This document shows, in pieces, positions 38,722-48,925 of a stretch of 64,000 nucleotides of DNA. The notes under the pieces were generated by a model. The model did not search any database and was not told the DNA's origin. It saw only the letters and a program-made list of their open reading frames with translations. Both the position numbers and the translations under genes were made by a program. Source of the DNA: Ruminococcaceae bacterium R-25 (lineage in GTDB: Bacteria > Bacillota > Clostridia > Saccharofermentanales > Saccharofermentanaceae); assembly GCA_003149065.1 (NCBI GenBank), contig QGFZ01000004.1:1-64000 (forward strand), read 5' to 3'. How positions within the stretch are numbered: position 1 is the stretch's first letter; every line of letters starts with the position of its first letter.

Positions 38722-40587
38722 TTAATTGTCTTTAAGAGCGCTCCAGCCGACATCCTTCCAGCACTTGCCTGTGCCGATCTGAGCTACTGATGAATAGTAG
38801 GGCATGGGAAGAGTGCCCGTCATGGGGACTTTCTTTGTAAGTACGTCAGCGACTGCGTTGCCGCCTTCGGTACCAGGCAGATACAGCATGATGCATGAAT
38901 CCCATTCATCGAGATACTGATCGACGATAACATTTCTTCCTGCTGCAATGAGCGTAACGACAGGCTTTCCGGACTGTGCTGCGAGCCTTATTGAATCTGC
39001 ATTTCCGGGAAGTCCCATATTGCCTGTGAGTGACAGGTCATCTGTATCACCGTACCATTCGGCATAGGGCTTTTCGCCGATGCAGAGGAGCACGATATCG
39101 CAGGAACCGATCTGGTTTTGGTCAGTTACGATCTCAAAGCCGCCTTCTTTAGCTGCTGCGGTGAGAGCTTCAACGATAGAGCTTCCTTCAGACCTGAAAT
39201 GGTTTGCGCCAATATTCATGTCTCTGATAGTTTTGTCGGTCTCTCCCTGCCACCAGTTGGTCCAGCCGCCGCAGAGAACACCGATATCGTCTGCTGCAGG
39301 TCCTGTAACGAATACTTTCATGCCGGGCTTTATGTACATGTTTTCGCCGGCTTTAAGAGGCACGAAGGACTCGGCAGCGAGCTTTCTTGCTACTTCATGA
39401 GATCTCTGGCTTCCGAATTCATAGGAGGGATTGATCTTTTCGAGATAGGGATCGTCGAAAAGACCTGCTTCTTTTTTGACCGTTAAGATCCTGATAACTG
39501 CGTCGTTTATTCTGTCTTCGCTGATCTTGCCTTCCTTGACGCCTTCTACAATGAATCTCATGGCATTGGCATGTTCGGTCTCGGTCATGAGCATGTCGAC
39601 ACCTGCATTTACGCAGAGGATAACGTTCTCTTTGTAATTGGCGCCGGAGCAGTTCATGACGGAATCCCAGTCTGTAAGAACGATGCCCTTAAAGCCCATG
39701 TCATTCTTGAGATAACTGATGTATTTTTCGTTCTCGTGCATCTTCGTGCCGTTCAGGGAAGAATGCGAGAGCATTATGACCTTAACGCCTTCGTCGATCA
39801 GTGCCTGATAGATAGAGAGCTGTTCCTTGATCTGATCTTCGGTAAGCTTTGAATCGCCCCTGTCGAGAGGTGTGCTCTCGCCTGTACCGTAAGATATCAT
39901 GCCGTCGCCGAAGAAGTGCTTCGGGCATGCCAGGACCCCTTCTGACATAAGGCCCTTTGTATATGCAACGGCGAGCTCTTTTACGATCTTATAGTCTGAA
40001 GAATAGGATTCATAAGTCCTTCCCCATCTGGGATCATTTGCGGTAGCAACGCAGGGCGAGAAGTTTAACATCATGCGCGTTTGTGCGACGTCGCTTCCTG
40101 CGAGCTTTCCGTATTCTTCGGTAAGTGCTGTATCGCGGGCTGCGCCTATATTTATGTTATGCGGGAAAATGACGCATCCTGATGCAAAGTTTACTCCGTG
40201 AACGCTGTCGTTGCCGTAGATGAATGGGATAGGAGCTTCGTTCTGAAGAGCATTTGTCTGATAATCGGTAACTGTCTTTTTCCACTCCTCTGCCGTGGGC
40301 ATCGGGAAGTCATCTTTTCTCGAGAGTATCGATCCGTAATCCGTGACCCTCATCTCGGAGGCATCGACGTTATATATCGTAGGCTGCATCATCTGTGCGG
40401 CCTTCTGTTCCAATGTCAGAGTCTTGCAGATCTCTTCCGGAGTCATCGGTGAATAATCGACAGCAGGTTTATTAGTCACCTCGCTGCTCTCGGTCATTGG
40501 GGCAAATACACTGCCCTTATCTATGCATGCTGTTGAAGCCGTAACTGACAGGATCAAAAGTCCTGCGATCAATCTTTTTGCTTTCAT
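38722..40587 (-). CDS. Glycoside hydrolase family 3 lipoprotein (beta-glucosidase type)
   Basis: 621 residues; start at 40587 behind GGGAAGGAATT. Lipobox STAC anchors it outside. The GH3 N-terminal barrel shows PIPFIYGNDSVHGVNF, ACPKHFFGDG and the nucleophile Asp in GIVLTDWDSVM (about 306); the C-terminal domain has VFVTGPAADDIGVLCGGWT and KPVVTLIAAGRNV. It should release glucose or similar units from oligosaccharides or glucans at the cell surface. It is divergent from the quorum-controlled operon and shares its 230-base intergenic region, including the LytTR-type repeats. Confidence 0.92.
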   Translation of the reverse strand: MKAKRLIAGLLILSVTASTACIDKGSVFAPMTESSEVTNKPAVDYSPMTPEEICKTLTLEQKAAQMMQPTIYNVDASEMRVTDYGSILSRKDDFPMPTAEEWKKTVTDYQTNALQNEAPIPFIYGNDSVHGVNFASGCVIFPHNINIGAARDTALTEEYGKLAGSDVAQTRMMLNFSPCVATANDPRWGRTYESYSSDYKIVKELAVAYTKGLMSEGVLACPKHFFGDGMISYGTGESTPLDRGDSKLTEDQIKEQLSIYQALIDEGVKVIMLSHSSLNGTKMHENEKYISYLKNDMGFKGIVLTDWDSVMNCSGANYKENVILCVNAGVDMLMTETEHANAMRFIVEGVKEGKISEDRINDAVIRILTVKKEAGLFDDPYLEKINPSYEFGSQRSHEVARKLAAESFVPLKAGENMYIKPGMKVFVTGPAADDIGVLCGGWTNWWQGETDKTIRDMNIGANHFRSEGSSIVEALTAAAKEGGFEIVTDQNQIGSCDIVLLCIGEKPYAEWYGDTDDLSLTGNMGLPGNADSIRLAAQSGKPVVTLIAAGRNVIVDQYLDEWDSCIMLYLPGTEGGNAVADVLTKKVPMTGTLPMPYYSSVAQIGTGKCWKDVGWSALKDN

Positions 40588-40625: not shown

Positions 40626-40663
40626 ATTTTACATTACCATTTAATTTTTTACATTGGCACCTG
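40626..40663 (+). promoter_or_regulatory. LytTR-type direct-repeat operator, copy 1
   Basis: ATTTTACATTACC and TTTTTACATTGGC are direct repeats with ACATT starting at 40631 and 40651, 20 bp (about two helical turns) apart, as LytTR regulators such as AgrA require. All but one of the 38 bases recur at 48026-48063 upstream of agrB. It lies between divergent GH3 and lipoprotein genes. Confidence 0.8.
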
Positions 40664-40679
40664 GGTTTCGTGTTTTTTA

Positions 40680-40708
40680 TTGAATTCAAGTTATGGCTTT
40701 TATATAGT
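40680..40708 (+). promoter_or_regulatory. Promoter of the peptide/ABC exporter operon
   Basis: TTGAAT (40680-40685), 17 bases and TATAGT (40703-40708). The -35 is weak and the repeat operator sits just upstream, as expected for an activator-dependent promoter. Confidence 0.6.
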
Positions 40709-40817
40709 TCACGTAATTTACTTGCAAAGGGGGTTGAAAGCCTAGGAGACATTACAATCACATACCTTCCCCAAGGTGCTACAAGCATAGATAACAAAAC
40801 TAATAGGAGTACGAAAA

Positions 40818-41525
40818 ACGAAGAAATTTATCGCAACTTTATGCCTTGGCTGTGTTATTGCATCAAGCTTCACAGCCTGCAGGCAGGATACTGAATTATA
40901 TAATGCTCTGTCTGCTTCGTCAGACGGACCTGTTTCGGAATCAACGGAGCATATTGTAAATACCGACGATACGAGAGTAATGGTCGATCCGTTTGAAGAG
41001 ATGAAAAAACAGGCATCGGATATTACACCGGTCGGGAGCAGCGCTGCATTTTCAGATCCCACAACTTCACTCGAACACACTGTAAGAGTGATGTCAGTAA
41101 GTTACGGAAAAAGTCTTAATGAGATCAGTGTAAGCACCGGCAACATAGAAGAATACTTATTCGAAAAGGGTGACATCGAATCTTCCGGTGAGGCCAGGCA
41201 GGGTTATAAGTTCATGGTTATTAACTGTGAAGTTACAAGAACCAAAGGACTTTCCGAAAAAATACCTGCAGACGATGAAAGAAACAGGTTTGCCATTGCC
41301 GATCCATGCATCCTGAACAGTGACTTTAAACCTTGTGATGCTGTTGAGGCAGGCCTGGTTCAACCGGATGAGACCAGAATATCCGGTGGAATTTATTCCA
41401 TCAGGATTCCTGAAACAGGTAAGACGATCGAATGCAAAATGATTTTTCTGATCAAAGAAGATGAAAAACCGGCTGTTCTGTCCTCTACCTGGTTTGATAC
41501 GAAACTTTTCTCTCTTTACACATGA
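40818..41525 (+). CDS. Lipoprotein, first of two paralogues in the quorum-linked operon
   Basis: 235 codons if read from ACG 40818. The start is unusual: GGAG (40806) points to ACG, and the following KKFIATLCLGCVIASSFTAC is a signal peptide with lipobox that aligns with the paralogue at 42126, where the codon is ATG. The first in-frame ATG (40980) would remove the signal. The mature part, for example LEHTVRVMSVSYGKSLNEI and IECKMIFLIKEDEKPAVLS, is about half identical to the paralogue, and its fold recalls DUF4352/DUF5028 immunity-like domains (tentative). Confidence 0.7.
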   Translation, partial: TKKFIATLCLGCVIASSFTACRQDTELYNALSASSDGPVSESTEHIVNTDDTRVMVDPFEEMKKQASDITPVGSSAAFSDPTTSLEHTVRVMSVSYGKSLNEISVSTGNIEEYLFEKGDIESSGEARQGYKFMVINCEVTRTKGLSEKIPADDERNRFAIADPCILNSDFKPCDAVEAGLVQPDETRISGGIYSIRIPETGKTIECKMIFLIKEDEKPAVLSSTWFDTKLFSLYT

Positions 41526-41548
41526 AGAGTGTTTTTCCAACAAACGTT

Positions 41549-41584
41549 TTGTCTGCAGCCGTGCTCTGGCACTGCTGCAGACAA
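41549..41584 (+). other. Perfect stem-loop between two operon genes
   Basis: TTGTCTGCAGC and GCTGCAGACAA form an 11-bp stem with a 14-base loop and no T tract. Placed just ahead of the secreted-protein gene, it may be an RNA processing or stabilising structure that raises the level of the downstream message. Confidence 0.55.
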
Positions 41585-41655
41585 GACAATTGGGTTGGCA
41601 TGGCCGGATCACGATCTGTCAAAAAGATTCAAATTTAAAGAGGAGTGAAATTCAG

Positions 41656-42117
41656 ATGAAGAAAATTATTGCAACAATGCTTTCAGCAGTTGCTACCGTA
41701 GTTTGTTTTACGGCAGTTCCGTTATCAGCAAACAATAACAGCGATGTGGATTTTTCATTTACGCTGCCTGCATATTACTACTATAAAACGACAACAGAAG
41801 GTGAGTATAAGGAAGATACTTCTCCCACGTATGTTCATTTTTATGACCATTCATCCTGGGCAGTAGGAGAGTATGGTGTCCAGTTTTCAGTTCATGGAGG
41901 AAACAGCGTATACAAAGTTTCCGAGAACTGCACATGCGGAGGAACATCCTGCATTATCTATCCTGATTCACACAGACGCATTCATCAGAATGTTAAGGAA
42001 TGGGGATATTCATATGCATTTCTTGGTACCAGTGCACCTAACAGTTTAGTTGCAGGAAAAACAATTTACGGCCAGTGGAGCCCTGATTCTACAGGAAGTT
42101 CTCCCTTTGCTAATTAA
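41656..42117 (+). CDS. Secreted DUF2712-like protein (possible bacteriocin-like product)
   Basis: 153 residues from ATG 41656 behind GAGGAGTG. A signal peptide (KKIIATMLSAVATVVCFTAVP, cleavage after LSA) is followed by FSFTLPAYYYYKTTTEGEYK, a central NCTCGGTSC and the end VAGKTIYGQWSPDS. This layout resembles DUF2712 proteins, short secreted proteins found beside ABC exporters in Firmicutes and loosely related in context to lactococcin-972-type bacteriocins. It is the only clearly exported small product in the operon. Toxic activity is not shown by sequence. Confidence 0.65.
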   Translation: MKKIIATMLSAVATVVCFTAVPLSANNNSDVDFSFTLPAYYYYKTTTEGEYKEDTSPTYVHFYDHSSWAVGEYGVQFSVHGGNSVYKVSENCTCGGTSCIIYPDSHRRIHQNVKEWGYSYAFLGTSAPNSLVAGKTIYGQWSPDSTGSSPFAN

Positions 42118-42125
42118 CCGTTGAT

Positions 42126-42863
42126 ATGAAGAAGAGCTTACATATTTTGGCGGTCTTTGTCTGCGGGTGTATTGCTGCATCCTGCGTTACATCATGCCGC
42201 CGGAATTCTGAATTATATAATGCACTGTCGGCTTCGTCGGAAAATACTTCTGCAGAGGTTTCCGCTACGGATCCGACAGAGCATGTAATTAATACAGATG
42301 ATACGAGGATTGCAGTTGATCCTTTCGATGACATCAGAAATGCGGCTTCAGATATTACGTCTTTTGGAGACAGTGCGTCTTTTTTAGACCCGGAAACATC
42401 ACTTGAACACAGTGTACGTGTTTTGTCCGTGAGTTACGGAACGAGTCTTAATGAGATCGGCATTGAAGCCTCATCCATGAAAGATTATTTATTTGAAGCC
42501 GGATTCATCGGTCCCGACGGAACGGCATTGCAGGGAAGAAAATACATGGTAATAACATGTGAGATTACTAAAACTCACAGTATTTCAAGCGATATCCCGG
42601 ATAATGACCCTAGGAATCACTTTTCACTGACGAATTCCTGCATTTTAAACAGCAGACTTGAACCGTGTGATGCAATGATGGCAGGTTTTGTCCAGCCGAG
42701 TGAATCTCAGATGCCGGATAGAAAATCCATGTTTTTCATTAGGATCCCGTCTGAGGGAATGACTATTGAATGCAAAGCCGTTTATTTGATAAAAGCTGAC
42801 GAAGAGCCGGCTGTTTTGTCTGTTACTTTGTTTGATCCGAAACTGCTTTCTTTAAACGGGTAA
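42126..42863 (+). CDS. Lipoprotein, second paralogue in the quorum-linked operon
   Basis: 245 residues, nine bases after the secreted protein. It starts MKKSLHILAVFVCGCIAASC and shares with the protein at 40818 the blocks ELYNALSASS, VNTDDTRVxVDPF, DITxxGxSASF, SLEHxVRVxSVSYGxSLNEI and VLSxTxFD. The two copies flank the secreted-protein gene, so one may have arisen by local duplication. An immunity or receptor role for the secreted product is the simplest reading (inference). Confidence 0.78.
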   Translation: MKKSLHILAVFVCGCIAASCVTSCRRNSELYNALSASSENTSAEVSATDPTEHVINTDDTRIAVDPFDDIRNAASDITSFGDSASFLDPETSLEHSVRVLSVSYGTSLNEIGIEASSMKDYLFEAGFIGPDGTALQGRKYMVITCEITKTHSISSDIPDNDPRNHFSLTNSCILNSRLEPCDAMMAGFVQPSESQMPDRKSMFFIRIPSEGMTIECKAVYLIKADEEPAVLSVTLFDPKLLSLNG

Positions 42864-42869
42864 TTTTTG

Positions 42870-43682
42870 ATGAGAATTGAATTGCGCAAGGCTTTTTCCG
42901 GCTGGAAGTTTGTAGTTACATTTTTGATACTTTGCATTATTTCAGCCGGTTCAGCGTTATATGTAATCACCGGCAGTTTTCGTGATGTTTTTCATGCAGG
43001 AGAAAACCCGATGCTGGGAGTAACTTCTGTATATAAGTACTGGATGGGGAATGATTGGGATTCATGGTTTTCATCCTTGTATTTCTTTTTGTTCCCCATA
43101 GCTGCCGTTATGCCGGCAGGTCTCTCGCTGTATAAGGAGAAGAAGACGAATTATACGGCGCAGATGCTTATCAGGGAAAACAAAAACGTCTACTATCTCC
43201 ACAAGTACTTAGCGGCGTTTATTTCCGGAGGCGTTATTGTATGTCTACCGGTAATTATGAATATTATGGTAGTCGCATTGAGATTTCCTTTCAGAACACC
43301 GGATCTGAACTACGATATCTATTACAAGATACAGCCGTTTTCTTTTGCTTCAGGGCTCTTTTACACACGCCCGTGGCTGTATCTGATATTGCGTCTTGCA
43401 GTTATCTTTTTATATGCGGGATTATGTGCGGTATTAAGCACGTCGGTTTCTTTCATCTGCAGGAACAGATACATTATCGTTTTTACTCCGCAGATCCTGT
43501 TTATGGTAGTCAACTTCTGTAACATGGCCTTTCAGATACCGTATGAATTGTCTCCGATTAAATTCTTAGGCGCAGGAAACACATATATTGTTGCTTCTTC
43601 TGTTGTCTTTGGAGAAGCAGCATTGCTTATTGCCGTGTCTCTGACATTGTTTGTTTTCGGGAGAAAACGGGATGTTCTGTAA
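42870..43682 (+). CDS. ABC exporter membrane subunit 1
   Basis: 270 residues, starting at ATG 42870, six bases after the lipoprotein stop. About six hydrophobic segments with a cytoplasmic start typical of ABC-2 permeases (MRIELRKAFSGWKFVVTFLIL). The loop YKEKKTNYTAQMLIRENKNVYYLHKYLAA is of the kind that contacts the ATPase. It overlaps the next permease gene by 11 bases. Confidence 0.8.
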   Translation: MRIELRKAFSGWKFVVTFLILCIISAGSALYVITGSFRDVFHAGENPMLGVTSVYKYWMGNDWDSWFSSLYFFLFPIAAVMPAGLSLYKEKKTNYTAQMLIRENKNVYYLHKYLAAFISGGVIVCLPVIMNIMVVALRFPFRTPDLNYDIYYKIQPFSFASGLFYTRPWLYLILRLAVIFLYAGLCAVLSTSVSFICRNRYIIVFTPQILFMVVNFCNMAFQIPYELSPIKFLGAGNTYIVASSVVFGEAALLIAVSLTLFVFGRKRDVL

Positions 43683-44541
43683 GATCTTGGGATACGACAT
43701 AAAAAGAGGAATACTTAACAGCTATAAAGGACACATTCTGACTGTCCTTTTAAGCATTTTTATCTGCATCAGTTTTGCCTGTGAATACACCAAGTTTTAT
43801 GAACTCAAATCAGCTCATTATCTTGATATTCTTTTCTTTGCATTTGCGGGCAGCCCGAAATTTGTACCGGGCAAAGACATGCAGTTTGTTTTCCCACTGT
43901 TCTGGGCAACGATATTTCTTCTGCCCTTATATCTTTCTTCGTACTATCCTTTCTACGACCTGATAGGATACGGCAAAACGATACTGATCCAGTCGGGGAG
44001 CAGATATAAATGGTGGCTGTCTAAAACCATCTGGTGCATATTGAGGATCGCTGCGTATTTTTTGGCCATCTATCTTGTGGCACTGGTATTCTGCCTTGTT
44101 ATGGGGATTCCTGTTAAATACAGTGTAACGGAAAACGCCCACAGCATGGTGATAAACAGCTGCTACAAAGCGGATGTTTATGCTCCCGGAGAATATGCCT
44201 TGCTGGATTTTAACGGCCAGATGGGCATTCTGTTCCTGTTGGCACCTGTTATTGTTTTATCCGTGCTCTCGATACTTCAGATGACGATATCATTGCTGTC
44301 CACACCGGTTTACGGATTCCTCTTATCGGCAGTGATACTGGTCTCTTCCACTTATTACCTTCATCCGCTGTTCATCGGCAATTACCTGATGGTATTAAGA
44401 AGCGACCGGCTTTTCTCAGGCGGTGTAAATGAGGTAACAGGATCAGCAATATCGCTGCTTCTGATAATTTTCGTGACCGTAATAAACCTGATGGTTTTTA
44501 AGAAATACGACATCCTGGCAAATGTATTCAAGGACGAATAG
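43672..44541 (+). CDS. ABC exporter membrane subunit 2
   Basis: 289 residues from ATG 43672, within the end of the previous gene. About six to seven membrane segments; starts MFCKILGYDIKRGILNSYKG. The loop GKTILIQSGSRYKWWLSKTIW resembles the coupling region of bacteriocin-type ABC-2 permeases. It pairs with subunit 1 and the ATPase encoded next. Confidence 0.8.
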   Translation: MFCKILGYDIKRGILNSYKGHILTVLLSIFICISFACEYTKFYELKSAHYLDILFFAFAGSPKFVPGKDMQFVFPLFWATIFLLPLYLSSYYPFYDLIGYGKTILIQSGSRYKWWLSKTIWCILRIAAYFLAIYLVALVFCLVMGIPVKYSVTENAHSMVINSCYKADVYAPGEYALLDFNGQMGILFLLAPVIVLSVLSILQMTISLLSTPVYGFLLSAVILVSSTYYLHPLFIGNYLMVLRSDRLFSGGVNEVTGSAISLLLIIFVTVINLMVFKKYDILANVFKDE

Positions 44542-44552
44542 GAAGGCATTAC

Positions 44553-45218
44553 ATGGACCACAAAATCGAATTAAAAAACATAACCAAGCAGATAAGGAAA
44601 AACACTGTATTAGACAATGTTTCCTGTTCATTCACGTCGGGCGAAGTAACCGGACTCGTAGGAGTTAACGGATCCGGCAAGACTATGCTCATGAGGATCA
44701 TCACGGGACTTTGCGTTCCGACTGAGGGCGAAGCCCTGATCGACGGGAAAAAGCTCCATAAGGATATTTCTTTTCCCTCAAGCTGCGGAATGCTTCTGGA
44801 GACCCCGGCTTTTATTGATTCTTTCACAGGTTTCGAAAATCTGAAGATGATCGCATCGATCAAGAAGAAAGTCAGCGACAGCGATATCAGGGAGTGCATC
44901 AAAAAGGTCGGCTTGAATCCTGACGACAATAAGAAATACCGCAAGTATTCATTGGGAATGAAGCAGCGTTTGGGAATTGCCGGAGCGATTCTCGAAAAGC
45001 CTGACATAGTCATTCTGGACGAGCCTACTAACGCTTTGGACGTAGACGGTGTCGAGCTTGTAAAAGAGATAATCAGGGAACAAAAAGAGAGAAATGCAGT
45101 CGTGATCGTAGCGAGCCATGATGCAGGAATAATAAAAGAATTAGCAGATACCGTATATGTGATGAAAGAAGGACGCTTATCTGTGATGGCTGACAAGATG
45201 GAGAAAGACAATGAATAA
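44553..45218 (+). CDS. ABC exporter ATP-binding subunit
   Basis: 221 residues. Walker A GVNGSGKT (about 37-44), signature YSLGMKQR, Walker B IVILDEPT and the switch His in VIVASHD are all intact. The short length and sequence are typical of bacteriocin/antimicrobial-peptide export or immunity ATPases. Its end overlaps the next gene by eight bases. Confidence 0.92.
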   Translation: MDHKIELKNITKQIRKNTVLDNVSCSFTSGEVTGLVGVNGSGKTMLMRIITGLCVPTEGEALIDGKKLHKDISFPSSCGMLLETPAFIDSFTGFENLKMIASIKKKVSDSDIRECIKKVGLNPDDNKKYRKYSLGMKQRLGIAGAILEKPDIVILDEPTNALDVDGVELVKEIIREQKERNAVVIVASHDAGIIKELADTVYVMKEGRLSVMADKMEKDNE

Positions 45219-45819
45219 GCGCAAAGTGATCCTGATAACAGCGGGCGTTGCTTTCGTTTTATGGCTCGCTGCCGTGATCAGAATAAATATTACAAGTGAA
45301 CATCAGCAGATAAAGGTCTATGAGATCGGCGACGTGGTCTCATACGGACAGAATTACTATGAAGGAAGTTACGAGATAATCAACGGTTATAAAGCACAGG
45401 TGTTATCCGGAAACATATACAGATATGAAGACTACCTGTCATTGATGGATATTCCCGGACAGAAAGGTTCTCACCAGCAGTATGTATACGATCTGGAGAT
45501 ATGTTTTTATAACGAAGACCTGGACAGTGAACGCGGAGTAAATCTTATTTCCACGTATCTCGCTTCAGCTGATGACCGTCTGGCGATCAATACCGAACTC
45601 CTTTCCCAGATCTATCCTCAGTTAGGTGACTCTCCTACTGAATTCAGGATAAGACCGGGAACGTCAATGGTGATGCATATTCCTTTCCAGATGGAATATA
45701 TCTCGGCTCTTTATGTCGGTGATGAAGAGAAGTTTCTTAAGGGAAATGAGTTCTATTTAAACGTTACTCAATATCCGGAAAAACAGCTGGTCAGGATACC
45801 GGCTGCAAAGAATAAATAA
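45211..45819 (+). CDS. Signal-anchored protein, DUF5028-like
   Basis: 202 residues. One N-terminal transmembrane anchor (KVILITAGVAFVLWLAAVI), then an external beta-rich domain (YEIGDVVSYGQNYYEGSYE, YVYDLEICFYNEDLDSERG). Its composition and layout resemble the two operon lipoproteins and DUF5028-type proteins found beside ABC exporters. Family assignment is tentative. Last gene before the regulatory cassette. Confidence 0.68.
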   Translation: MNKRKVILITAGVAFVLWLAAVIRINITSEHQQIKVYEIGDVVSYGQNYYEGSYEIINGYKAQVLSGNIYRYEDYLSLMDIPGQKGSHQQYVYDLEICFYNEDLDSERGVNLISTYLASADDRLAINTELLSQIYPQLGDSPTEFRIRPGTSMVMHIPFQMEYISALYVGDEEKFLKGNEFYLNVTQYPEKQLVRIPAAKNK

Positions 45820-45862
45820 AGGCATATCCGGAATGCCTGAAGCTATATGAAAGGAGCCTCAA

Positions 45863-45910
45863 ATGAGTTTGATATATAGGCTTAAGGTCTTTTTTCAAGA
45901 GGATGATTAA
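45863..45910 (+). CDS. 15-residue leader ORF before the response regulator
   Basis: AAAGGAGCC gives a strong ribosome site for ATG 45863. The frame MSLIYRLKVFFQEDD ends in TAA whose last base is the A of the next ATG (TAATG, 45908-45912). Translation of the regulator may depend on ribosomes finishing this leader. Too short to identify. Confidence 0.45.
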   Translation: MSLIYRLKVFFQEDD

Positions 45911-46734
45911 TGTATGATTCATACGGGGAGAATAGGCATACTGCAGATAACATAAACCACGGTGTTATCAAGGGAAAGCAGTATTTCTTTGTTGATCAGA
46001 AGTTAGTGTTCAAGATAGTTCTTTGTGATGACGAAGAAAGATTCCTGGATCTTGAAAAGGACCTGATTGCCGAATACTTTGACAAAAAGGGCATTCCTTT
46101 TAGCGTGGATTGTTTTTATTCAGGTGAGGAACTGCTTGCAAACGACGTCCTTCTGGATATTGCAGACCTTATCATTCTCGATGTCGAGATGAAAGGCATA
46201 GACGGAATAACCGCTGCCAAAAAGATCAGGGAGAAGAACGATAAAGTCAATATCGCTTTCCTGTCTGCCCACATGAATTACTCCACTGACGGATATCACG
46301 TCAGAGCCATCAGATTCATCCTGAAAACATTAGATGACATTAAGGATTATCTTTTTGAATGTCTGGACAGTGTTCTCACAAATGAGGACCTGAACGACAG
46401 GGAAATAACAATGGATTTTACGATAGGAAAACGCACGGTTAAGGTCAATGACATCCTTTATCTTAAATCATGCGGAAACTACACGGCATTTGAGCTTTTG
46501 AACGACTCAAAAGAGAACTATATGATCAGGCATTCTTTAAAGCAGACAACTGAAACCATGTCAGCATTTGATTTCGTATCAATAGCTTCGACTGTTACGG
46601 TCAATCTTCATCACATAAGAGCAGTTACCAGATATATGGTCTTACTTGATAACGGTGAAGAGATCCCCGTCTCGCAGAGAAAATACAACGAAGTCTGCCG
46701 TGCGTATACATTGTTTAGAGGGAAAAACGCATGA
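45910..46734 (+). CDS. AgrA-like response regulator (REC-LytTR)
   Basis: 274 residues from ATG 45910. The receiver domain starts only at VFKIVLCDDEE (33 on) with phosphoacceptor D91 in LIILDVEMKG; the C-terminal LytTR domain (about 160-274) contains NDILYLKSCGNYTAFEL. The 32-residue N-terminal extension is not part of the family; an internal GTG at 46006 would give the usual length but has no clear ribosome site. LytTR proteins bind paired direct repeats, exactly the element found at 40626 and 48026. Coupled to the kinase by ATGA. Confidence 0.88.
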   Translation: MYDSYGENRHTADNINHGVIKGKQYFFVDQKLVFKIVLCDDEERFLDLEKDLIAEYFDKKGIPFSVDCFYSGEELLANDVLLDIADLIILDVEMKGIDGITAAKKIREKNDKVNIAFLSAHMNYSTDGYHVRAIRFILKTLDDIKDYLFECLDSVLTNEDLNDREITMDFTIGKRTVKVNDILYLKSCGNYTAFELLNDSKENYMIRHSLKQTTETMSAFDFVSIASTVTVNLHHIRAVTRYMVLLDNGEEIPVSQRKYNEVCRAYTLFRGKNA

Positions 46735-48023
46735 CGGAAAATGTATTGTCTTTAATCTCCAATTTGTTCAGTGTTCTGATCCATTATTCTTTTATGAAGT
46801 GCGTTTTAAACCGCAAAGCCGAAAAGAAACTGGATTATATCCTGATAGCGGTCCTTTATGCCGCAAGTTCCTTAAACTCTATTTTCATGAGCAGCAACGG
46901 AGTGGTAAAGCTCGCTATAGTAACGGTTGTTTATACGGTTTTCACTGTCCTCATTTTCAAGGTTTCCATTAAGAAGAGCATTCTTGCAAATGCCGTATAT
47001 ATCGGCATTGTAATATCTCTCGATATGTTAGCTTTACTGATCCTCCAAAAGATAATCAAAGCAGATGGTATTTCTGATGTCACGCTGCAAAACGGAGCAT
47101 TTATCACTGAGCTTATATGTCAGCTTGTAATGCTCGTCATAGTGATGGTATTAAATATCGTCACGCAAAAAGGAGCCCTTTCCAATCTTGATATCAAGGG
47201 GTGGCTCACGTTTGCTTTATTTCCTCTGTTTACGCTTGCTTCCGTAGTCATTCTGGTATTTTCAGCCGATAAACAAAACATTAATGATATGTACTACGGT
47301 ATAGCATTTCTTGCAGGGGGCATGCTTTTATTGAATATTCTGTTATTTATCCTGCTTGATAACGTTGTCAGGCGCGAAAATGACATCAGAAACAAGGAGA
47401 GGCTTTTGGAACAGACGGCACATATTAATCAAATGTACCGTTCGCTTTCCGAAGAGCGCGAAAAGCAGAAAGCACGTTCTCATGACTATATGAACCATTT
47501 GAATGTAATGCTCATGCTCGCGCGTGAAGGCAAAGTCGATGAAGAGATCCATTACATTGAAGAACAGCTGGGCAAAGAGGTCCAGAGCGTTGACATCATA
47601 GATACCGGCAACACATTGATAAATGCCGTTTTGAACATCAAGTATCTTGAAGCAAAAGAGAAGGGCATCATCATTCCTTTTATTGCCGACAATTTAACAG
47701 GACTTAAGATAAGCGACAGCGACCTTGTCACCATACTTACGAATGTTTTGGATAATGCCATCGAAGCCGTTCAGAAGTGTGAGGAAAAACGACTCGTTTT
47801 CAAGATCATCAAAGATTACGACACACTCATAATCGACTCTTCGAATCCTTATGTCGGCCAGCTGCCGGATGAAGAAAGCCTCGTTACGACGAAGTCCGAC
47901 AAAAACAACCACGGATTTGGTCTCGTAAACATCAAAAAGACCGTAGAAGCCAATAACGGCAACTGTTTCATCGATACCAAGGGCGGGATATTCCATATCT
48001 CGATCGCCATTCCGCTGGCTTAA
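46731..48023 (+). CDS. AgrC-like sensor histidine kinase (GHKL type)
   Basis: 430 residues. Six or seven transmembrane segments (about 1-210) form the peptide sensor. The dimerisation helix holds the phospho-acceptor His in ARSHDYMNHLNVML (about 250), followed by the N box LTNVLDNAIEAV and the G box NNHGFGLVNIKK. This is the HATPase_c_5 architecture of AgrC/ComD kinases, which respond to cyclic or linear peptides. Overlaps the regulator gene; the repeat operator follows its stop directly. Confidence 0.92.
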   Translation: MTENVLSLISNLFSVLIHYSFMKCVLNRKAEKKLDYILIAVLYAASSLNSIFMSSNGVVKLAIVTVVYTVFTVLIFKVSIKKSILANAVYIGIVISLDMLALLILQKIIKADGISDVTLQNGAFITELICQLVMLVIVMVLNIVTQKGALSNLDIKGWLTFALFPLFTLASVVILVFSADKQNINDMYYGIAFLAGGMLLLNILLFILLDNVVRRENDIRNKERLLEQTAHINQMYRSLSEEREKQKARSHDYMNHLNVMLMLAREGKVDEEIHYIEEQLGKEVQSVDIIDTGNTLINAVLNIKYLEAKEKGIIIPFIADNLTGLKISDSDLVTILTNVLDNAIEAVQKCEEKRLVFKIIKDYDTLIIDSSNPYVGQLPDEESLVTTKSDKNNHGFGLVNIKKTVEANNGNCFIDTKGGIFHISIAIPLA

Positions 48024-48025
48024 GG

Positions 48026-48063
48026 ATTTTACATTACCATTTTATTTTTTACATTGGCACCTG
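48026..48063 (+). promoter_or_regulatory. LytTR-type direct-repeat operator, copy 2 (agrBD)
   Basis: ACATTACC (48031) and ACATTGGC (48051) repeat with the same 20-bp spacing as copy 1, and 37 of 38 bases are identical. It begins two bases after the kinase stop and would let the regulator activate agrBD, closing a positive feedback loop. Confidence 0.82.
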
Positions 48064-48078
48064 ACTTTTTGATTTTTA

Positions 48079-48107
48079 TTGTAGTGGGCCTTGACATTTT
48101 ATATTAT
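48079..48107 (+). promoter_or_regulatory. Promoter of agrBD
   Basis: TTGTAG (48079-48084), 17 bases, TATTAT (48102-48107), at nearly the same distance from the operator as in copy 1. A consensus-like TTGACA at 48091 lacks a -10 at proper distance and is less likely. Confidence 0.55.
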
Positions 48108-48147: not shown

Positions 48148-48741
48148 ATGGAAAACATATCTGCATTTATTGCGGATAGGATGTGTAAACTTGAGATCAT
48201 TAAGAAAGATGATCTCAAGTTCTACTCTTACTCTATCCAGCTGCTTTTGGAGAGAACGATCGGATTGATCCTGATCGGCATCTTCGCGCTGGCCTTCAAG
48301 TCCTTTTTTGAGATCGCTGTTTTTGTTATCACATTTGCTTTGATCAGGATCCATTCTGACGGCATGCATTGCAAGACGAGCATAGGCTGTTTTATCACAT
48401 CAGTGCTGATGTCGCTTTCCACTATACCCGTATCAACATGGCTTATGGCAAATCCGATAATCTGCAAGGAATGCGTTATGCTGTCGATAGTGGTTATTTT
48501 CGTGATCGGCACTATACGCGATCCGAATCTGGATCTTTCAGATAATGAGTTTTTCCGCTTAAGGATCAGGTCCCGCATCGGCATTTCGATAATCGGCCCG
48601 GTTGTTTTAAGCCTGCTGATGATACTGCCGGATAACAGGCTCGTCTACTATTCGTCCGTCGGAATAATCTATAACGCATTGAATCTCATTACAGTAAAAA
48701 TATTAAGAAGAGAGGTGTCAAAAAATGAACAAGAATGTTGA
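48148..48741 (+). CDS. agrB: AgrB peptide-processing membrane endopeptidase
   Basis: 197 residues, GGGGACAAAGA before ATG 48148. The catalytic pair of AgrB is present: RIHSDGMHCKTSIGC, with the His and the second Cys seven residues apart as in staphylococcal AgrB (H77/C84). About five hydrophobic segments follow. AgrB cuts the AgrD C-terminus and forms the thiolactone ring. Its last 17 bases overlap agrD. Confidence 0.92.
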   Translation: MENISAFIADRMCKLEIIKKDDLKFYSYSIQLLLERTIGLILIGIFALAFKSFFEIAVFVITFALIRIHSDGMHCKTSIGCFITSVLMSLSTIPVSTWLMANPIICKECVMLSIVVIFVIGTIRDPNLDLSDNEFFRLRIRSRIGISIIGPVVLSLLMILPDNRLVYYSSVGIIYNALNLITVKILRREVSKNEQEC

Positions 48742-48865
48742 GAGAATCGTTCTCGAAAAGGTTGAAAGGCTGACAAGAAAGAATGCGAACGCAACGCAAT
48801 CTTATACGGATCTGCCGAAGTGCACATTCCTGATCCATCAGCCTAAGAGACCGAAGCATCAGTAA
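48725..48865 (+). CDS. agrD: AgrD autoinducer peptide precursor
   Basis: 46 residues, AGAGGTG ahead of ATG 48725, overlapping agrB. A helical N-terminus (MNKNVERIVLEKVERLTRK) is followed by TDLPK-CTFLI and the tail HQPKRPKHQ. The single Cys, four residues and a Pro-containing tail align with staphylococcal AgrD (CDFIM followed by DEPEVPKEL). The predicted signal is a five-membered thiolactone of C-T-F-L-I with an exocyclic tail of unknown length. The tail after the cut site is basic, while the known ones are acidic. Confidence 0.85.
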   Translation: MNKNVERIVLEKVERLTRKNANATQSYTDLPKCTFLIHQPKRPKHQ

Positions 48866-48895: not shown

Positions 48896-48925
48896 AGGGG
48901 TTGTTTTTGAAAACAACCCCTTTAT
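48896..48925 (+). terminator. Terminator after agrBD
   Basis: AGGGGTTGTTTT and AAAACAACCCCTT form a long stem with a TGA loop, ending in TTTATT. Confidence 0.85.

Follow-up and report, generated by a model that had tools for sequence, protein, structure and literature searches.

The stretch analyzed here, hereafter the window, consists of 64,000 nt of Ruminococcaceae bacterium R-25 (assembly GCA_003149065.1, contig QGFZ01000004.1, positions 1 to 64,000) and carries an agr-type locus, with genes for an AgrB protease, an adjoining AgrD precursor, a GHKL sensor kinase and a LytTR response regulator. A 38-bp element is found twice around these genes, once upstream of a run of lipoprotein and ATP-binding cassette (ABC) exporter genes that leads into the regulator and kinase genes, and once upstream of agrBD. 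An earlier note, made from the sequence alone, had proposed that the two copies define a quorum regulon. The central features, in window coordinates, are the following.

38722..40587, - strand: GH3 gene, divergent from copy 1
40626..40663, + strand: predicted operator copy 1, with direct repeats TTTTACATTACCA and TTTTACATTGGCA at a period of 20 bp
40680..40708, + strand: promoter-like TTGAAT-N17-TATAGT, its TTG 29 bp beyond the first base of copy 1's right repeat
46006..46734, + strand: LytTR response regulator (agrA-like), its GTG start set by aligning relatives
46731..48023, + strand: GHKL sensor kinase (agrC-like), by Pfam
48026..48063, + strand: predicted operator copy 2, preceding agrBD
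48079..48107, + strand: promoter-like TTGTAG-N17-TATTAT, its TTG 28 bp beyond the first base of copy 2's right repeat
48148..48741, + strand: agrB (Pfam AgrB, E 1.1e-27)
48725..48865, + strand: agrD precursor, with the core ...PKCTFLI and, after it, the tail HQPKRPKHQ

The regulator matched the Pfam families LytTR (E 3.3e-13) and receiver (E 6.5e-13), and AgrD scored 21.4 bits with the NCBIfam model TIGR04223 against a cut-off of 19. Within the AgrB motif HCKTSIGC, H74 and C81, which we take to be the catalytic residues, were invariant in nine of nine sequences.

The two copies of the element agree at 37 of 38 bases, the single difference that the earlier note had described, and each is a direct repeat of TTTTACATT(AC/GG)CA, the ACATT-type repeat claimed there, at a 20-bp period. 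The note had asked for a whole-genome scan for ACATTACC-N12-ACATTGGC; across the 3.07-Mb genome we found exactly two matches and none with the reversed control, and two patterns allowing up to three mismatches each, one of 37 bp and a looser one of 31 bp, returned the same two places only. Occurrence at many unrelated loci, named beforehand as the case against an operator, is thus excluded within this genome. The repeat upstream of the window agrB (11 of 13 bases matching, p ≤ 0.02 in 200 dinucleotide shuffles) is moderately unusual on its own, and the weight of the argument therefore rests on the near-identity of the copies and on the comparison with relatives.

The promoter-like sequences are both weak by consensus, and a promoter scan of the region gave 21 matches against 19.8 expected, among them the promoter of copy 1, with that of copy 2 falling under the threshold. 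Their nearly equal spacing to the element, 29 and 28 bp measured from where the right repeat begins, was as claimed. We compared this spacing across 55 sites, comprising the two of the window and 53 aligned from relatives, one of the relatives' 54 sites being dropped for a cut flank. The TTG of the –35 box lay at exactly +28, counted from the right repeat's first base, in 48 of them; window copy 1 has it at 29. For the –10 box, the best match began at offset 51 or 52 in 34 of the 55, ties being resolved towards offset 51. Downstream sequence was not used in the site search, but orthologous promoters among the 55 sites are nonetheless non-independent. With the TTG fixed at +28 and putative start sites, the right repeat would be located near –60, as for AgrA at the P2 and P3 promoters of Staphylococcus aureus, which it binds with the right repeat near –60 according to the available excerpt of PMC4227749.

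To place the element in its genus, we searched 85 genomes of Saccharofermentans-type rumen bacteria and found an agrB match in 26 (related records are named Saccharofermentans sp., Ruminococcaceae bacterium and the like, several of them from rumen or omasum). An AgrB alignment search gave 15 loci, mostly from metagenome-assembled genomes of Saccharofermentans, Ruminococcaceae or Clostridiales, with one Mageeibacillus and one Bacteroides at 27% identity; the window AgrB used as the sole query against genome contigs gave no confirmed match. In 25 agr systems, some of them near-identical (G057/G058 and G005a/G048), we looked before agrB for a repeat with a period of 19–23 bp. Such a repeat was found in 23 of the 25 at p ≤ 0.02 (p values uncorrected), with best periods of 20–22 bp, and among four systems scored later G010 and G029 reached p ≤ 0.01. 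Regulator and kinase genes lie directly upstream of agrB in 24 of the 25.

The 23 repeats were sorted by eye into nine sequence classes. The largest are ACTTTRTCCC, with 11 systems, and an ACTTGCCWAAT-like class, with five; ACATTRSCA (the window), AGACTATCCCAC, TACAAYTCGTG, CCCGCTTTTGCCT, TTACCAAAAAA, ACCAAACTCGTCA and CGRATCTTTGCCT are each represented by a single system, and one genome, G005, holds two classes. Over the 23 systems, operator similarity was correlated with the similarity of the regulators' DNA-binding domains (r = 0.83, permutation p = 0.001) and with that of their receivers (r = 0.77; partial, 0.49), the operator strings being hand-picked and unequal in length. Much of this correlation is shared descent, yet the pattern suggests that the operator sequence and the protein reading it change together.

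Two direct repeats with a period of about 20–22 bp just upstream of the –35 box are characteristic of a LytTR-type operator and are what we find here. Together, the repeats before agrB, the fixed promoter spacing and the tracking of the regulator's DNA-binding domain by the operator support the geometry that the note had read from the window, and they make a strong case for the 38-bp element as a LytTR-type operator with predicted binding by a LytTR domain.

The largest class provided a view of what such operators control. The pair ACTTTRTCCC-N9-12-ACTTTRTCCC was present in 13 of 14 selected agrB genomes, with 1–10 sites each, the exception being the genome of the window with none; it was absent from eight selected genomes lacking an agrB match, and the reversed control gave no sites in any of the 22. 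A 37-bp pattern of the class, allowing up to three mismatches, gave 47 sites in 11 of the 85 genomes. Sorted by hand, the 54 sites of the relatives comprise 12 before agrB, seven before agrA and 35 before other genes. The first open reading frame (ORF) at 23 of these 35 begins with a signal-peptide-like sequence by a heuristic run without a control (25 with L123 and L136 added by eye), and Pfam searches of 20 target proteins identified solute-binding-like domains, MacB_PCD, FtsX and alpha/beta hydrolase in some but no family in most. Among the targets are agr genes together with genes for secreted proteins, lipoproteins and ABC exporters. Since the module recurs at further promoters in relatives, the term regulon is apt and the proposal of the note is supported, the regulon so defined consisting of two promoters in this genome. 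As a separate observation, two agr-type operators in G018 are followed by genes for large proteins (L129:1040-3805, 746 aa, and L132:1148-4639, 1164 aa), for which Pfam gave no match.

We propose, with a probability of about 0.85, that an agr-type quorum-sensing circuit uses the element as its operator, in that the regulator binds it and activates both agrBD and the run of lipoprotein, ABC exporter and receiver genes, and the AgrD peptide is sensed. AgrB would process and export this peptide, the GHKL kinase would sense it and phosphorylate the LytTR regulator, and a pair of regulators would then bind the two repeats and activate the promoter just downstream. Copy 2, placed before agrBD, would give more signal; copy 1, placed before the lipoproteins, a small secreted protein, the ABC exporter, the regulator and the kinase, would give the output and more receiver. 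With copy 1 leading the output and receiver genes and copy 2 the signal genes, the operators frame the circuit. Which parts are present and in what order, and how the repeats are built and spaced, can be read directly from the sequence and its comparison with relatives; we infer binding by the regulator, the direction of control, co-transcription and AgrD sensing.

Several observations weigh against this proposal or limit its generality. In the ACTTTRTCCC class, G011, G045 and G072 hold one site each without an agrB match, and G004 has one such pair elsewhere in its genome while its own agrB operator is of another class. No significant repeat was found in G040 (p = 0.07, or 0.42 with a corrected start) or in G050b (p = 0.12), nor before the agrB fragment of G004 or the contig-end agrB of G003. 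In G029 (L172:7933-8172) the repeat is present, but the 7.9 kb upstream of agrB yielded neither a regulator nor a kinase match. Six of 14 agr genomes (G018, G013, G005, G048, G050 and G004) gave no operator upstream of agrA, so feedback on the receiver is not general. The genome of the window contains 10 LytTR domains, and another regulator could therefore bind the element. That a different LytTR protein reads the operator, or that the kinase is blind to AgrD, leaving no closed quorum loop, has a precedent in Clostridioides difficile, where RgaR drives agrB1D1 and RgaS does not sense AgrD1 (PMC10602386, as excerpted). We consider such an arrangement unlikely here, as regulator, kinase, operator and agrB adjoin in nearly all systems and the operator class follows the DNA-binding domain of the linked regulator.

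Descent rather than selection for binding might also have made the copies alike, if they were one duplicated promoter region or if the element were itself a promoter. Promoter-like hexamers, TTTACA-N16-TACATT, are present within both copies, and duplication or gene conversion can yield near-identity of sequences 7.4 kb apart. The flanks outside the element diverge far more, though, with only T-runs and the TTG/–10 spacing in common; the corresponding module precedes many different genes in relatives, and repeats of other sequence occupy the same position before their agrB. We regard this origin as highly improbable. Control of the GH3 gene by copy 1, in addition to the rightward run or as its main target and for example by repression, is slightly less probable than an unlinked reader of the operator. 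GH3 is indeed divergent from copy 1, as noted earlier, and its start codon is only 38 bp away. In four relatives (L067, L070, L071 and L072), however, a GH3 homologue of 81–83% identity is convergent and 3' of agrD, and the sites found there precede agrA and agrB, leaving GH3 unsupported as a target. The idea of the element as a general repeat was rejected, given its two matches in the genome and the presence of the window operator, allowing up to three mismatches, in 1 of the 85 genus genomes, its own.

The proposed quorum-sensing circuit differs from those of its nearest relatives in the sequence of its operator. Both window operators read ACATTRSCA, a position taken by ACTTTRTCCC in the nearest relatives (with TTTTACTTTRTCCC in place of the full operator), and the lineage of the window seems to have changed its operator specificity relative to the genus. 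ACTTT-class regulators keep the same operator down to 39% identity in the DNA-binding domain, whereas the window regulator is 57–65% identical to eight of them and 42–46% identical to three, with a different operator. These values suggest that the deviant operator is not easily explained by shared descent.

We examined the LytTR half of the regulator for a candidate cause. At 26 columns invariant in 12 other regulators (alignment A4), the window departs at one, a change from K to R. The predicted LytTR domain (mean pLDDT 89.2) aligns to DNA-bound AgrA with Z scores of 12.3 (3bs1) and 12.4 (4xqj), the range over AgrA structures being 12.0–12.4, and the alignment spans model residues 1–96 and AgrA residues 140–238; AgrA was identified by this fold comparison and is absent among the listed matches of a PDB sequence search with the LytTR part. 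If the last six aligned residues are ungapped, the changed residue, 91 in the model, probably occupies the position of AgrA R233, and an R233A mutant served as a DNA-binding-defective control in work on AgrA (PMC4227749, as excerpted). Other regulators speak against a simple role for this residue. G004, with another operator, also departs at the same column (K to L) and at four more, and with departures at 5 of the 26 columns its sharing of the window's column has a chance of about 0.2. Furthermore, regulators that go with still other operators have R at the AgrA-233 position in G025 and G034, and N in G014 and throughout the systems of the ACTTGCC type, which means that this residue does not by itself determine the operator sequence. 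The K-to-R change is suggestive only, a candidate for the cause of the operator switch.

More broadly, the agr circuits of the genus may have diversified into about nine operator codes of fixed geometry, each with its own regulator, and the window may represent a natural rewiring that involved the regulator, both operators and a quorum-controlled cargo; we put this at roughly even odds. If every code has a LytTR regulator of its own, a single cell could operate two circuits without cross-talk, G005 being a genome with two classes, and with the cargo placed downstream of copy 1 and ahead of the regulator and kinase genes, the output would be quorum controlled.

The cargo and the remaining features of the locus are as follows.

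40764..40796, + strand: leader stretch like the relatives' leader RNA (AAGGTGC..ACAAGCATAGAT), not stably folded
40818..41525, + strand: lipoprotein-like protein 1, no Pfam match; frame apparently opening at ACG with a ribosome-binding site upstream
41656..42117, + strand: small protein with a signal-peptide-like start, weakly DUF2712-like (E 0.033, below cut-off)
42126..42863, + strand: lipoprotein-like protein 2, no Pfam match, 54% identity to protein 1
42870..43682, + strand: probable ABC permease A by its gene neighbourhood, a membrane protein with no significant Pfam match
43672..44541, + strand: probable ABC permease B by its gene neighbourhood, a membrane protein with no significant Pfam match
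44553..45218, + strand: ABC transporter ATPase (ABC_tran, E 1.3e-30)
45211..45819, + strand: DUF5028 protein (Pfam)
45925..46000, + strand: hairpin-forming 5' leader of the regulator gene, with compensatory changes in its outer stem relative to relatives
48896..48921, + strand: terminator-like hairpin after agrD, the clearest + strand match of the terminator scan

From copy 1 onwards the genes are closely packed, the lipoprotein-ABC run being followed by DUF5028, the LytTR regulator and the GHKL kinase. The note had placed regulator and kinase directly before copy 2, which Pfam and their adjoining positions confirm; we would add that they are probably also the last genes of the copy-1 operon. 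A terminator scan gave seven matches on both strands against 6.2 expected, with two weak ones on the + strand inside the run, and TATGAT at 45913 is a possible internal –10 box ahead of the regulator gene. At 41546-41587, downstream of the operon's first gene and ahead of its second, a very stable hairpin (z = –3.55) lacks a T-run and may serve in processing or partial termination. The start of the first lipoprotein gene at 40818 is ACG and not ATG, GTG or TTG, with AGGAG upstream, and may be an unusual start, a mutation or a sequence error.

The best NCBIfam model for the ATPase is that of a lantibiotic protection ABC transporter, below its cut-off. An operator-led operon in G018 has a similar ATPase (47%) and distant permeases (24–25%), and BLAST of its other genes against those of the window gave no convincing homology. 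Lipoprotein 2 had matches only in the window genome among the 85 genomes; a plasmid search gave no match and viral contigs contained no relative of the regulator. The recovered AgrD precursors (L065-L077, L173-L181 and L185) have in common a basic tail, (H/Y)QPKRP, past the cyclic core, including those of other operator classes, with the search pattern itself demanding part of this tail.

In six relatives (G066, G009, G002, G064, G060 and G010) about 400 bases of leader separate operator 1 from agrA. This leader, which is conserved and seems structured (L066:2846-3225, L067:11263-11660, L070:6220-6615, L071:6997-7375, L072:7107-7515 and L082:4395-4780) contains a hairpin with a C-rich loop, GCGAACAAGCATAGATGCATTCGC and a long hairpin with compensatory changes; 9 of the 70 predicted pairs in the alignment of the six sequences are changed on both sides, with a small covariation term of –0.27, and an Rfam scan of five of these loci gave no match. 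An RNA model built from the six, R1, found them again together with a weak match in G035 (E 0.033), totaling 7 of the 85 genomes. It did not detect the window leader, its sole match lying elsewhere (E 3.4), and the copy-1 leader of the window folds no better than shuffles (z = +1.39), for which reasons this putative leader or small RNA is no part of our finding. The leader of the regulator gene at 45925-46000 has 3 of 10 outer-stem pairs changed on both sides among seven sequences; folded as a single sequence it is little better than shuffles (z = –1.21), and a model built with the window included, R2, matched nothing convincingly when run on 14 further loci (best E 0.65). The window retains a short leader piece (ACAAGCATAGAT) after copy 1 and a block ahead of agrA at about 45880-46005, with the lipoprotein-ABC run between them, and an insertion of this run between leader remnants is the simplest reading.

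The agr gene order and AgrD tail of S. aureus differ from those of the window, whose tail reads HQPKRPK. Both systems contain AgrB, AgrD, a GHKL kinase and a LytTR regulator with the same DNA-binding-domain fold, and in both, as far as the excerpts of the papers cited here go, paired direct repeats place the proximal one near –60 (PMC4227749). Unlike S. aureus agr, the window has the order regulator-kinase-agrB-agrD with both promoters in the same direction, promoter spacers of 17 bp instead of 18 and 20 (PMC4227749) and a different repeat sequence. No Rfam match, such as RNAIII, was found in the window, and with its promoters in the same direction the locus is therefore not filed as a subtype of the S. 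aureus system, with its divergent P2/P3 and RNAIII. The RgaS-RgaR/agrB1D1/SpoZ system of C. difficile is alike in that a response regulator acts on VirR-like paired repeats upstream of both agrBD and a small RNA, but its kinase does not sense AgrD1 and its two-component genes are non-contiguous, whereas those of the window adjoin agrBD (PMC10602386).

The inducer of PlnC/PlnD in Lactobacillus plantarum is a linear peptide. That system resembles the window in having two same-face repeats before several operons, regulatory and transport ones included, and differs in its 9-bp TACGTTAAT repeats with a 12-bp spacer (PMC2714321, as excerpted). The LytTR regulatory systems HdrRM and BrsRM similarly autoregulate through paired repeats at a fixed distance, and across such systems the repeats are poorly conserved in sequence while the spacing is conserved; they differ from the window in being pairs of a regulator and a membrane inhibitor, with repeats biased to 10 bp from the –35 box (PMC6193735, as excerpted), a shorter gap than that of the window, whose TTG comes 28 bp after the right repeat begins. 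Among the results listed by searches of an open-licence library, we found neither an agr regulon for the genus nor a comparable series of operators in agr circuits, their absence in print being unproven. The agr/LytTR quorum circuit is of a known kind, and the regulon, the operator diversity and a possible specificity switch are new.

The operator of this circuit is unusually well resolved. For an uncharacterized rumen genus it provides a quorum regulon readable from sequence alone, with outputs including secreted proteins, lipoproteins and exporters. The relatives provide a natural series of regulator and operator pairs with one architecture and about nine DNA sequences, which lets the recognition code of LytTR domains be tested directly.

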